Positions 6,156-18,191 of a stretch of DNA of 64,000 bases are shown here, one piece after another (position 1 is the stretch's first letter; each line of letters begins with the position of its first letter). The notes under the pieces were generated by a model. It was not told where the DNA came from, searched no databases, and saw nothing but the letters and a program-made list of their open reading frames with translations. The translations under genes and the position numbers were made by a program. This stretch comes from Rhodocytophaga rosea (GTDB lineage Bacteria; Bacteroidota; Bacteroidia; Cytophagales; 172606-1), in NCBI RefSeq assembly GCF_010119975.1, contig NZ_CP048222.1, positions 124,001 through 188,000 on the forward strand. The letters are read 5' to 3'.

Positions 6156-6455
6156 ATGAAGAGACAAGTATTTGATGAGGCATTTAAACAAATGGCTGTA
6201 GAATTATCCTATGTAAAGGGATCCGTAAAAATAGCGGCTCAAGAATTAGGGATTGATCCGGGTAGATTAAGTAAGTGGAGACAAACTCTACAGGAAGGTA
6301 AGATAGTTGCCGGCCAGAAGCAAGGACTTACAGCAGAGCAATTAGAAATCAAACGCTTACAAAAGGAGTTGAAGGAGGCCCAATTGGAGCGCGATATATT
6401 AAAAAAGGCGGTCAGCATCTTTTCCAAGAGCGATGGAAAATATTTCAATTCATAA
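6156..6455 (+). CDS. IS3 transposase OrfA (DNA-binding HTH subunit)
   Basis: A 99-residue OrfA: an N-terminal helix-turn-helix (residues 5-50, QELGIDPGRLSKWRQ) and a leucine-zipper-like coil (about 65-92, KRLQKELKEAQLERDILKK). It binds the terminal repeats. Near its end the codons TTA AAA AAG form the slippery heptamer A AAA AAG. A -1 shift there opens a frame (GGQHLFQERWKIF) that runs without a stop into OrfB, the usual IS3-family way of making the OrfAB transposase. Confidence 0.9.
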   Translation: MKRQVFDEAFKQMAVELSYVKGSVKIAAQELGIDPGRLSKWRQTLQEGKIVAGQKQGLTAEQLEIKRLQKELKEAQLERDILKKAVSIFSKSDGKYFNS

Positions 6456-6487
6456 AGGAAAACTACTCACTGTTTCCCATTGAAAAG

Positions 6488-7318
6488 ATGTGTAAGGTGA
6501 TGAAAGTAAGTGTAAGCGGTTACTATTACTGGCTCAAACACCCTATCAGTTCCCGGACAGTTAAGGAACAAGCGTTATTAGTTGACATCCATAAAATATA
6601 CGATGATAGCAAAAAGCGCTATGGAAGTCCCAGAATCACTAGTGAGTTAAGGGAACAGGGTATCCAAGCTTCACGTCCACGGGTAGCCAGGCTGATGAGG
6701 AAAGCGAATATCAAGAGTATCATCAGGAAGAAATACCGGGTACAGACTACGGATTCTAAACATGACTATGCCATTTCGGAAAACCACCTTAATAGAGATT
6801 TTTCTGCACAGGCAATTGGGCAGAAGTGGGTGTCAGATCTAACTTACATTAGAACAGGAGAAGGATGGCTATACCTGACAGCTATACTGGATTTAGCTGA
6901 CAGAAAGGTAGTTGGCTGGGCAATGAGTGATAACATGAAAGCTAATGATACTACGATAGCTGCCTGGAAGATGGCCATCAAAAATAGGCCTATAAAGCAA
7001 TACCTATTGTTTCATTCCGATAGAGGAGTGCAGTACGCATGTACAGATTTTAGAAAACAGCTAAAAGGAATGCCCGTTTTGCAAAGTATGAGCAGGAAAG
7101 GCAACTGTTGGGACAACGCAATTGCAGAAAGTTTCTTCAAAACTCTAAAAACAGAGTTAATATATCATGACTATTATGCTAATAAACAACAGGCAAAACT
7201 TTCTGTTTTTGAATACATCGAAGGCTGGTATAATAAAAAAAGAAGGCATTCTGCTTTAGGCAATAGAAGTCCTCAACAGTATCAATGCTATTTAGAAGAA
7301 AAAAGATTAGCTGCCTGA
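6488..7318 (+). CDS. IS3 transposase OrfB (DDE integrase core)
   Basis: The catalytic half of the IS3 transposase, with an N-terminal HTH_21-like region (residues 30-90) and an rve integrase core. The DDE residues are visible in VSDLTYI, HSDRGVQYA and NAIAESFFKTLK, so catalysis should be possible. The first ATG of this frame is at 6488, but the frame is open from about 6400. The functional product is probably OrfAB made by -1 frameshifting from OrfA. It ends 14 bases before the right inverted repeat. Confidence 0.92.
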   Translation: MCKVMKVSVSGYYYWLKHPISSRTVKEQALLVDIHKIYDDSKKRYGSPRITSELREQGIQASRPRVARLMRKANIKSIIRKKYRVQTTDSKHDYAISENHLNRDFSAQAIGQKWVSDLTYIRTGEGWLYLTAILDLADRKVVGWAMSDNMKANDTTIAAWKMAIKNRPIKQYLLFHSDRGVQYACTDFRKQLKGMPVLQSMSRKGNCWDNAIAESFFKTLKTELIYHDYYANKQQAKLSVFEYIEGWYNKKRRHSALGNRSPQQYQCYLEEKRLAA

Positions 7319-8631: not shown

Positions 8632-8951
8632 TCATCTGTTAACCATGGTGATTACTTTGGAATCTTCTATAGTAACGACCACCCCATTTCCTATACCACC
8701 AAATTCATAAATTGTTTTCGGGTGTTCTCACTTTTTGTTGTTAGGTTGTCCTTTTACCGTCATTAATTGCTCTAAACTCATGCCAATCCATAGTTTTCCT
8801 TCAAGCATACGTTGAGCATCTTCATTGCCAAATCGCTGCGTCCATAATGCAAAATTTTGTTTTGCTCTCTGTTCTTCTCTCAACTTACTACTAGCCTTGC
8901 TTTGCAGTTTTTCCTCTTGTGCATTATATATCTTTGGACTTGCAACAAAAT
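8632..8951 (-). pseudogene. Remnant of a conserved hypothetical protein, with an internal stop, cut by IS3
   Basis: Minus-strand reading gives a continuous protein-like tail running out of the IS3 copy 2 left end. A charged coil (EEKLQSKASSKLREEQRAKQ) is followed by FALWTQRFGNEDAQRMLEG and KLWIGMSLEQLMTVKGQP. A TGA (bases 8728-8730) then interrupts, and the frame continues EHPKTIYEFGGIGNGVVVTI to a stop at 8632-8634. The block 'RFG.EDA...G..W.GM....' resembles a C-terminal module seen in Bacteroidota lipoprotein-like proteins. Both the internal stop and the missing 5' end mark it as dead. Confidence 0.65.
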
Positions 8952-8964
8952 TGTGGACAATAAA

Positions 8965-9825
8965 TTAAGCAACTAACACATATTGATTTAAAAGTTGCTC
9001 CATCTGGGCTGGTGTTCTATATCCCAGAGAGGAATGCAGTCTTTTCCTGTTGTACCAGATTTCTATATATTCAAAAACAGTGGTAGCCGCTTGCTGCTGA
9101 TGGGCAAACTTATAATCATATACACATTCCACTTTCAGGGTCTTAAAGAAGCTTTCTGCGACAGCATTATCCCAACAATTCCCTTTTCGACTCATGCTTG
9201 GCTTAATAAGAGGATATGTACCTAATTCTTGCCTAAATTCATCACAGGCATACTGTATACCCCTGTCTGAATGAAATATTAGAGGTTGGATCACGGGCCT
9301 GTTTTTTATAGCCATTTTTAATGCTGCTATTGTCGTCTCTTTGGCCTTCATGGTTTTACTCAAGGCGAGAGCCAATAATCTTTCTGTCTGCCAAATCCAG
9401 TACCACCGTAAGATATAGCCAACCTGTAATGGTTCTGATATAAGTGGACCCGATGCTGACATCGTCTGCAGGTCCATGTCTGATACCCAGGCCTGACCTG
9501 TTGCATTAGCTGTAAAATTTCGATCCAGTAGATTTTCACTCACCGGATAGCTATGCTTTGAATCCGTAGTGACCTTATACCTTTTAATTCTTTTTGCCCT
9601 AAGCTCAGCCTGCTTCATTAAGCGGGCAACCCTGGGTCTGGAAACTGAAATGTTATTCGCTTTCAAGGCTTTACTGATTCTTGGGCTACCATAGGTCTGG
9701 CCACTCTCCTTATGGATCACTCTGATCTGTTGAAGAATTTCCCGGTTCTCTGTAGCTCGTTTAGATGGCTCACTGTTTATCCATCCATAATATCCACTTT
9801 TACTTACTTGAAAGGCTTTGCACAT
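8965..9825 (-). pseudogene. IS3 transposase OrfB, damaged
   Basis: This is a 286-residue frame with a normal N-terminal region (GYYGWINS, YGSPRISKAL) and normal later DDE motifs (FHSDRGIQYA, NAVAESFFKTLK). Between them the usual DLTYIRT...LDLADRK segment is disrupted. After WVSD an extra 32-bp piece (9445-9476) shifts the frame, giving unrelated residues (MDLQTMSASGPLISEPLQ). An extra base near GGCTCTCGCC then restores it at ALSKTMKAKE. The correct sequence YIRTITGWLYLTVVLDLADR is still readable in another frame. The product is unlikely to be catalytic. Confidence 0.85.
9445..9476 (-). repeat. 32-bp quasi-palindromic insert B (in IS3 OrfB)
   Basis: The minus strand reads TGGACCTGC through to CATCGGGTCCA. 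Terminal TGGACC/GGTCCA pair, and inner CGATG/CATCG pair around TCAG, so it can fold into a bulged hairpin. It matches the insert at 9912-9943 at 27 of 32 positions when one is inverted. Confidence 0.75.
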
Positions 9826-9911
9826 CTTCTCAATGGGGTATACAGTGTGATTATCCTTTATGAATTGGAATATCTCCCATCGTTCCTGGAAAAGATGCTG
9901 ACCGCCTTTTT

Positions 9912-9943
9912 TGGACCTGCCTACGTTGTGAGCATCGGCTCCA
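9912..9943 (+). repeat. 32-bp quasi-palindromic insert A (in IS3 OrfA)
   Basis: The plus strand reads TGGACCTGC through to CATCGGCTCCA. It lies between the codons for ERD and KKAVSIF of OrfA, where other IS3 copies have only two codons. It is related to the insert at 9445-9476 but in the opposite orientation. Confidence 0.75.
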
Positions 9944-10202
9944 TATCCCTTTCCATTTCTGCATCCTTTAATGCCTTCTTTAGACGGGCTATTTCTGCTT
10001 CTTCAGGGGTTTGTTTTGGTTTTCCATGGCCAGGAAAACTTCCCTCCCTCTTGTCTAAAAACTCACGGCGCCAGCGATAAATCAATCCAATTTTGATATC
10101 CAATTCTTTAGCCAGATCTACTAAATTTTTTCTGCTCTTACTAAGTTCAACAGTCATTAGTTTGAACTCCTTGTCGAATTTTCTTCTTTGTCCCATTTTC
10201 AT
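9921..10202 (-). pseudogene. IS3 transposase OrfA, truncated by an insert
   Basis: A normal HTH region (FDKEFKLMTVELS, LIYRWRREFLDKREG) and coil (EAEIARLKKALKDAEMERD) are followed by MEPMLTT-stop instead of the expected ILKKAVSIFS. The foreign residues come from a 32-bp insert at 9912-9943 that carries an in-frame TAG. After the insert the frame resumes as KKAVSIFSRNDG. The stop lies upstream of the A AAA AAG slippery site, so neither full OrfA nor OrfAB can be made. Confidence 0.85.
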
Positions 10203-10249
10203 TAAGTTAAGTATTTTCTCTTAACTTAATGTCCACCCAAATGTAGCAA

Positions 10250-10390
10250 GATCAGGGAGAGATATCTGGAGGTCAAGCATCAGATCCCTACTCAGGAGCA
10301 AATACAGCAGTTATACAGCCAAAAGAAAGAAGATATTTTAGCCAGAAATTATACTTTTATCCAATGGAAAAAGAAGCAGTCTCTGTCTTG
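10250..10390 (+). pseudogene. C-terminal protein remnant downstream of IS3 copy 2
   Basis: A plus-strand frame reads RERYLEVKHQIPTQEQIQQ, then LYSQKKEDILARNYTF and a short basic tail to TGA at about 10388-10390. It has good protein-like composition but no start between it and the IS3 end. It is probably the tail of a gene lost or separated by the insertion. The family is not recognised. Confidence 0.4.
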
Positions 10391-17139: not shown

Positions 17140-17748
17140 TTAAACACAATTAAGTATAATATTTTCATCTACTTCAAGTTTTTTAAAATCAAGTTTAAAG
17201 TAAGTACCCAATCCTGAAAAGATGGTATAAAGTGCCTCCTTAAGCGCTTCTACAGACAGATAGTCTTCGGCTTTGAGCCAATGATATTTCACCTGCTTCC
17301 AAAATCGTTCGATCCTGTTAAGATGAGGACTATACTTAGGCAGCAAAAAGATGTATAATCCTTTCTGTTCCCATTCTTCTTTTTTGACTTCCCATAGGCC
17401 ACATGTATGCCAGGAGGCGTTGTCTAAGACTATGACAGTAAACTTGGAAATAGATGTTGAGAAGGCCTCTACACATTCAATGATAAAGTCAGCGTTTAGA
17501 CTCCCACTTTTCTGATAAGTAAGCAACTCATTATTTGTACTTAACAAGCCAAATACATTTATCCTTGTACTTCTTTGGGATAAAATAGGGGCGTGTTCGC
17601 CTTTTTTGATCCATCCATAAGGTACACAAGGGGTAAGGCAAAACCCTGATTCGTCTCCAAAATATAAATCTATACTGCCTGTCTGTGCCAAATAAAGCAA
17701 AGCATGTAATCGCTTGACTTTCTGCTCATATGCTTCTTTGTTTTGCAA
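17140..17748 (-). CDS. IS630 transposase, DDE half
   Basis: The catalytic half of an IS630 transposase (202 residues from its first ATG). DDE motifs: LYFGDESGF, VIVLDNASWH and the PHLNRIERFWKQVK block with its acidic residue. The frame is open upstream (YRWKRFRKWIKPLQ) back to the slippery run of the preceding frame. The functional enzyme is probably a fusion made by a -1 shift. It inserts the element at TA dinucleotides. Confidence 0.88.
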   Translation of the reverse strand: MQNKEAYEQKVKRLHALLYLAQTGSIDLYFGDESGFCLTPCVPYGWIKKGEHAPILSQRSTRINVFGLLSTNNELLTYQKSGSLNADFIIECVEAFSTSISKFTVIVLDNASWHTCGLWEVKKEEWEQKGLYIFLLPKYSPHLNRIERFWKQVKYHWLKAEDYLSVEALKEALYTIFSGLGTYFKLDFKKLEVDENIILNCV

Positions 17749-17753
17749 TGGCT

Positions 17754-18191
17754 TTATCCATTTACGGAAACGTTTCCATCGGTAGTCAATTTTTTTAAAA
17801 ACCGCTTCAAGGTCATCTCACTCATAGCCGTGCCTAATTTAGCTTCTATCTCTCGCTTAGCTAATTTAAGTTGTTGTTTTTCTTTCTCTATGCTATTTTC
17901 CACTACTTCAACATGGGTAGCATTACTGGTAGTAAGGATGGGTTTTCTGCCTTTCCCTTTTTGGTTCTTTAACCCTACCACACCTGTTTTCTCAAAGCGA
18001 TCAAACCACTTATAAATACTTAACTGACTTACTTGAAAAATGCTTGCTAACTTCTGTACTTGATAGCCTTGATTGGATAACAGTATACATTGGCAACGGT
18101 TACGTTCCTGATAACTTTTACTATCTTTATGAATCTTCTCTAAGTCTTGTTTTTGCTTGTCTGTAATCTTCTTGATATAACGCATAAGCAA
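17754..18191 (-). CDS. IS630 transposase, N-terminal HTH half
   Basis: A 145-residue DNA-binding half with two helix-turn-helix units (QVQKLASIFQVSQLSIYKWF; AMSEMTLKRFLKK). Before its stop the codons TTA AAA AAA provide an A AAA AAA slippery heptamer. A -1 shift leads into KIDYRWKRFRKW and then the DDE half. The terminal LTTDGNVSVNG is the unshifted tail. Confidence 0.87.
   Translation of the reverse strand: MLMRYIKKITDKQKQDLEKIHKDSKSYQERNRCQCILLSNQGYQVQKLASIFQVSQLSIYKWFDRFEKTGVVGLKNQKGKGRKPILTTSNATHVEVVENSIEKEKQQLKLAKREIEAKLGTAMSEMTLKRFLKKLTTDGNVSVNG

Follow-up and report, generated by a model that had tools for sequence, protein, structure and literature searches.

Why does one of two IS3-family copies in the window (the whole 64,000-nucleotide stretch of Rhodocytophaga rosea DNA analysed here) contain two short hairpin-like segments that the other lacks? 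A sequence-only reading had described these segments as 32-mers, one in OrfA and one in OrfB, and both are indeed present in the second IS3 copy and absent from copy 1, where the empty sites read GATATATTAAAAAAGG and GTGTCAGATCTAACTTAC (Table 1). Insert A reads TGGACCTGCCTACGTTGTGAGCATCGGCTCCA and the minus strand of insert B reads TGGACCTGCAGACGATGTCAGCATCGGGTCCA; with one of them inverted they are identical at 27 of 32 positions, as had been reported, and the pattern occurs twice in the window and not at all in shuffles. The unit size of 32 bp needed correction, as the inserted unit is a 30-mer of the form GGACC...GGTCC that has mostly been swapped for one target nucleotide (net +29). At site B, empty homologues read GATATCACTTATATC (locus L007) and GATATCACCTATATA (L035), and filled ones read GACAT, the 30-mer and then ACTTATATC. 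Both 32-mers are members of a previously unrecognised family of hairpin-forming insertions of about 30 bases found in one family of the Cytophagales.

Table 1. Features of the insert-bearing IS3 element and of its uninserted relative in the window.
Feature	Position	Strand	Description
Host IS3-family element	8935..10254	-	1320 bp, ends TGATCTTGC... and ...GCAAGTCCA
Insert A (30-mer core 9913-9942)	9912..9943	+	OrfA codons ERDI/LKKA, immediately 5' of A6G slippery site
Insert B (30-mer core 9446-9475)	9445..9476	-	OrfB codons VSD/ITYI (first catalytic Asp)
OrfA, 93 aa	9921..10202	-	terminates at TAG within insert A
OrfB, 286-aa ORF	8965..9825	-	open through insert B owing to +1 indel downstream
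+1 indel	9364..9373	-	GGCTCTCGCC for GGCTGGGCC, exactly at VVGW/AM, an insert site in other IS3 copies
Uninserted IS3 relative (copy 1)	6156..7318	+	OrfA 99 aa, OrfB 276 aa; empty sites ~6393-6408 and ~6835-6846

The host element has the hallmarks of IS3 (OrfA and OrfB with an rve domain, TG..CA ends and an A6G slippery site). Its source genome, a single contig of 8.98 Mb, holds eight copies, seven of them identical and one with a 1-nt difference, and all eight carry both inserts. Target duplications of 3-4 bp are present at some copies (ATTT at L031, CATT at L032 and GGT at L034); none was seen at the window copy. Eleven places in all share the right end of the host element with at most three mismatches, namely the eight copies, a nested remnant, L035 and a partial copy in L165. 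The last two are likewise insert-bearing, and no insert-free sibling of the window IS was found among the eleven. Insert A is identical at 32 of 32 positions in the diverged IS3 copies L005, L007 and L020/L035, and the insert B site is empty in L007 and L035. The element is present in all eight IS copies, in diverged relatives and in three more genomes, so the inserts are not read artefacts, and the assembly or read error that the earlier reading had named as its possible refutation falls away.

The predicted effects of the inserts on the reading frames were borne out in OrfA, where the in-frame stop lies in insert A itself, and only in part in OrfB. Insert B does shift the OrfB frame, but the +1 indel downstream restores it, leaving about 26 residues between the two in the wrong frame. 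This indel is possibly the footprint of a lost insert, since it falls exactly where other IS3 copies carry one. Elsewhere in the window, a probable IS630-like element (17140-18191) is split into two ORFs, with no 30-mer hairpin at the break.

The 30-mers share an outer stem of 5 bp, either GGACC/GGTCC or the compensated forms GGATC/GATCC and GAATC/GATTC. In what we call the clean class, the 30-mer consists of blocks of five nucleotides arranged as GGACC a b a' b' GGTCC, and the inner helices thus interleave (X Y X' Y'), so that they must be either alternatives or a pseudoknot. All 120 of 120 cells are paired (100%) across eight sequences of this class, both members of two pairs have changed in every one of the three helices, and covariation scores 0.39 compared with 0.13 for shuffled sequences (0 of 500). 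Covariation was scored on the clean class only; the type-1 class, which includes the window inserts, has less regular inner pairing and an inexact block arrangement. A strict search for the clean class gave no match in the window, one in five shuffled 64-kb sequences and about 33 in the loci. Compensation is also seen at one and the same site in different genomes (GGACCTCAAACCAGGG..GGGGTCC versus GGATCTCAACCAGGG..GGGATCC). The classes have only the GRAYC/GRTYC feet in common, and CGTC or GTAG occurs inside some classes only. Net length ranges from 27 to 31, which refutes the idea that it is always 29. Membership of a known structured RNA family was rejected, as an Rfam search gave no match at the inserts.

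In L022 one element is nested inside another, and in L136 (G002:C19:20190) an element is broken by a 54-nt segment with TGGACC..GGTCCA ends of its own. At the A site of IS3 (e.g. L062, L005, L006 and L025), the GATGCTGAC-type segment of the insert is complementary, in inverted orientation, to the downstream flank GTCAGCATC, and changes in one are sometimes matched in the other. This site is possibly the birthplace of the type-1 element. Apart from this resemblance, element and target flank showed no guide-like similarity.

We used pattern and covariance-model searches to examine how widely the 30-mers are distributed. The 30-mer pattern has 26-27 matches in the source genome and matches in four of seven other members of the family, of which G007 has a single, weak match; the relatives include two metagenome-assembled genomes, Cytophagales bacterium YX1bin7 and YX2bin28. 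Covariance-model matches number 28 in the source genome, 18 in G002, 8 in G001 and 7 in G004, and the remaining 35 genomes, 31 of which represent other families of the order, gave no match. The control for copy counts of the window's class gave zero. Of 390 genomes examined across the order, only 4 contain the clean class (control zero), and viral contigs had no matches. More than 50 insert sequences came from a scan of the fetched loci, and the larger family comprises at least 75 unique contexts with many sequence classes and one architecture. Alignment of IS3 copies with and without inserts reveals up to six inserts per gene, which differ in sequence and share this architecture; in the source genome, L187, L192, L195 and L022 are IS3 copies with three to six different hairpin inserts each.

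All identified contexts (L026 left out) are mobile elements: IS3 of several subgroups, IS1182, IS1, IS66, other transposase genes and a group II intron. The transposase hosts further include IS91-like, IS1-like, IS256-like, IS66-like and ISAs1-like genes, several of the non-IS3 family names being assigned from our reading of translations, and the one insert in group II intron RNA (RF02001, E 1e-8) is in non-coding sequence. Statements about the genome as a whole are based on the searches and on 1.6 Mb of sampled sequence. In a systematic 1.2-Mb sample, regularly spaced except for one region shifted to take in a known IS, there were five matches, three in ISs and two weak, which is about the chance rate, and no convincing copy lay outside mobile elements, intergenic sequence included. 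An IS-rich sample of 0.4 Mb gave 29 matches. The inserts are apparently restricted to mobile elements, and the proposed check for copies in genes that are otherwise intact was positive, though inside mobile elements only.

Within IS3, inserts recur at about ten sites that are codon-exact across subgroups and genomes: ERDI/LKKA, KAVGI/F, QT/YGSPR, RVAR/LM, VSD/ITYI, VLD/LYSR, VVGW/AM, HH/SDRG, KGN/CYDNA and near ENP/AERVNG. Several insert sites fall at catalytic motifs (D1, D2 and E). Element class follows site, and the elements at RVAR/LM are of one class and one orientation. Close empty relatives fix the replaced base as T at YGSPR, VLD/LYSR, KGN/CYDNA and both IS1182 sites; at other sites it is unfixed or different from T, and RVAR/LM loses two bases. 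Immediately left of the element there is almost always a pyrimidine. Empty and filled sites can be compared directly in L189 and L066 (83% identical), L303 and L258, and L007 and the window. An IS1182-type element is present in at least five copies (L258, L298, L305, L307 and L312) that have distinct flanks and are 99-100% identical; two 30-mers and a shorter hairpin (ATTGACC..GGGTCAAT) interrupt its transposase, and an intact relative, L303, encodes about 490 aa.

The suggestion that the window inserts represent a mobile mini-element rather than random mutation is well supported, as empty-site homologues exist and the same structured 30-mers recur at numerous sites, across several IS families and four genomes. 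We consider it probable that the 30-mers are mobile micro-elements that depend on structure and home to conserved sites in other mobile elements. On this model, a 30-mer would be swapped for one target nucleotide of a mobile element, often a T after a pyrimidine, and entry would recur at identical codons of the transposase gene. The elements carry no gene and would therefore require an enzyme acting in trans, which might recognise either the short ends or the single strand in its folded form. The elements would spread among related IS copies either through recombination or through recurrent site-specific entry, and insertion appears to have been independent across IS3 subgroups, although identical elements in diverged ISs could instead reflect gene conversion. 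We found no enzyme and, except for the nested 54-nt variant, no autonomous longer element with the ends of the 30-mers. A MITE origin was rejected because one nucleotide is replaced with no duplication and, that same variant aside, no longer element has the same right end.

In L058, L072 and L076, a single element is flanked on the left by sequence from one site and on the right by sequence from a different one. The elements therefore appear to recombine with each other, which would delete the DNA between two inserts. Loci L204 and L205 of G001, two places that differ in their flanks, both hold an IS3 that has lost its catalytic core through a deletion running from one insert site to another. 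Mobilisation in trans therefore happens, and the value of identical IS copies as proof of activity is weakened accordingly. Most 30-mers break the transposase frame, and under the micro-element model insert-bearing ISs still spread, either through such help or because the knock-out is incomplete.

These deleted copies also favour a plainer alternative that we find plausible without quite favouring it, namely that the inserts are simply disruptive and arrived in dying ISs in a short burst at hot spots, the ISs being moved afterwards in trans by intact relatives. Potential helpers exist in the same genome (the intact IS1182 relative and IS3 copy 1), its intact multi-copy IS3 families (of 8, 5 and 7 copies) contain no inserts, and several insert-bearing copies have stops or indels as well (L035, L195, L023 and L115). 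In the best-quality genome, however, inserts are commoner than other lesions, and compensatory changes in the structures go on accumulating at one and the same site, as would not be expected of dead DNA.

Such compensation also speaks for a further, more tentative reading, in which the inserts resemble tiny bacterial introns or bypassed segments. Inserts of about 30 nt at fixed sites of mobile elements would be removed or skipped at expression, the hairpin being cut from the mRNA or jumped by the ribosome so that transposase is still made, and structure would be selected in each copy because each copy must be removed. Insert-bearing genes have few further lesions and show strong purifying selection, in keeping with this possibility: L187 (four inserts), L192 (six) and L221 (three) have no stops in 264-268 homologous codons and pN/pS values of 0.18-0.28, and the IS1182 element with three inserts has one stop in 484 codons and a dN/dS of 0.13. 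Two insert-bearing ISs, that of the window and the IS1182 type, are multi-copy, and for the former no insert-free sibling with a matching right end was found. Nevertheless, the +1 indel in the window OrfB makes sense only if insert B is translated through, and the core-deleted IS3 of G001 shows that mobilisation in trans happens. The absence of inserts from host genes, the variation in net length and the insert in a non-coding group II intron also weigh against removal or bypass, and no matched codons 29 nt apart, as a codon-matched hop would use, were found by hand at window site B and the L062 site.

Precedents for bypass are known. The byps of mitochondria of the yeast Magnusiomyces and T4 gene 60 are short frame-breaking inserts in essential host genes for which bypass has been shown (PMC5009743), and the plaA adhesin gene of Prevotella loescheii is a single case of a 29-nt hop (PMC5009743, PMC3022353). 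The 30-mers resemble byps and gene 60 in being inserts of tens of nucleotides that break frames, several per gene, but they are confined to mobile elements and show no matched codons at the sites inspected. The plaA hop, compared by description only, shares with them the phylum Bacteroidota and the net 29 nt. We regard all three as functional analogies only.

Two other alternatives concern the agent of insertion. Silencing by a host system that writes hairpins into conserved motifs of mobile elements would explain the restriction to such elements and the several sites at catalytic motifs, but no candidate enzyme has been put forward and insert-bearing ISs still multiply, so we consider it unlikely. 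REPs and REPINs, with their RAYT transposases, are imperfect hairpins of 20-40 bp, and REPs are extragenic with GTAG or CGTC tags (PMC3116915, PMC3733652). The earlier proposal of a REP-like unit is not supported, and a REP/RAYT-type element moved by a Y1 transposase is highly unlikely: the bulged hairpin of 20-40 nt is similar in size and six of eight family genomes encode Y1 transposases, but the inserts lie within mobile-element genes rather than between genes, carry neither GTAG nor CGTC as a conserved tag at the foot of the hairpin and do not clearly track Y1 presence, which extends to G003 and G007, both without the main classes.

If the 30-mers are mobile, as we think probable, they would be among the smallest mobile elements described and would live as parasites on other such elements. 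By size, they may come closest to the small dispersed repeats of cyanobacteria, which Elhai et al. reportedly described in 2008 as a few tens of bases long, without genes and proposed to be mobile. The 30-mers are likewise gene-less and proposed to be mobile, and are set apart from the general description of those repeats by their confinement to mobile elements, their fixed codons and their covarying helices. Their structure is conserved by compensatory change inside interrupted frames, which makes it testable whether they are cut out, skipped or tolerated. Either outcome would be new. In the one case bacteria would have a minimal system akin to introns or bypass, and in the other a site-specific inserter confined to mobile DNA.
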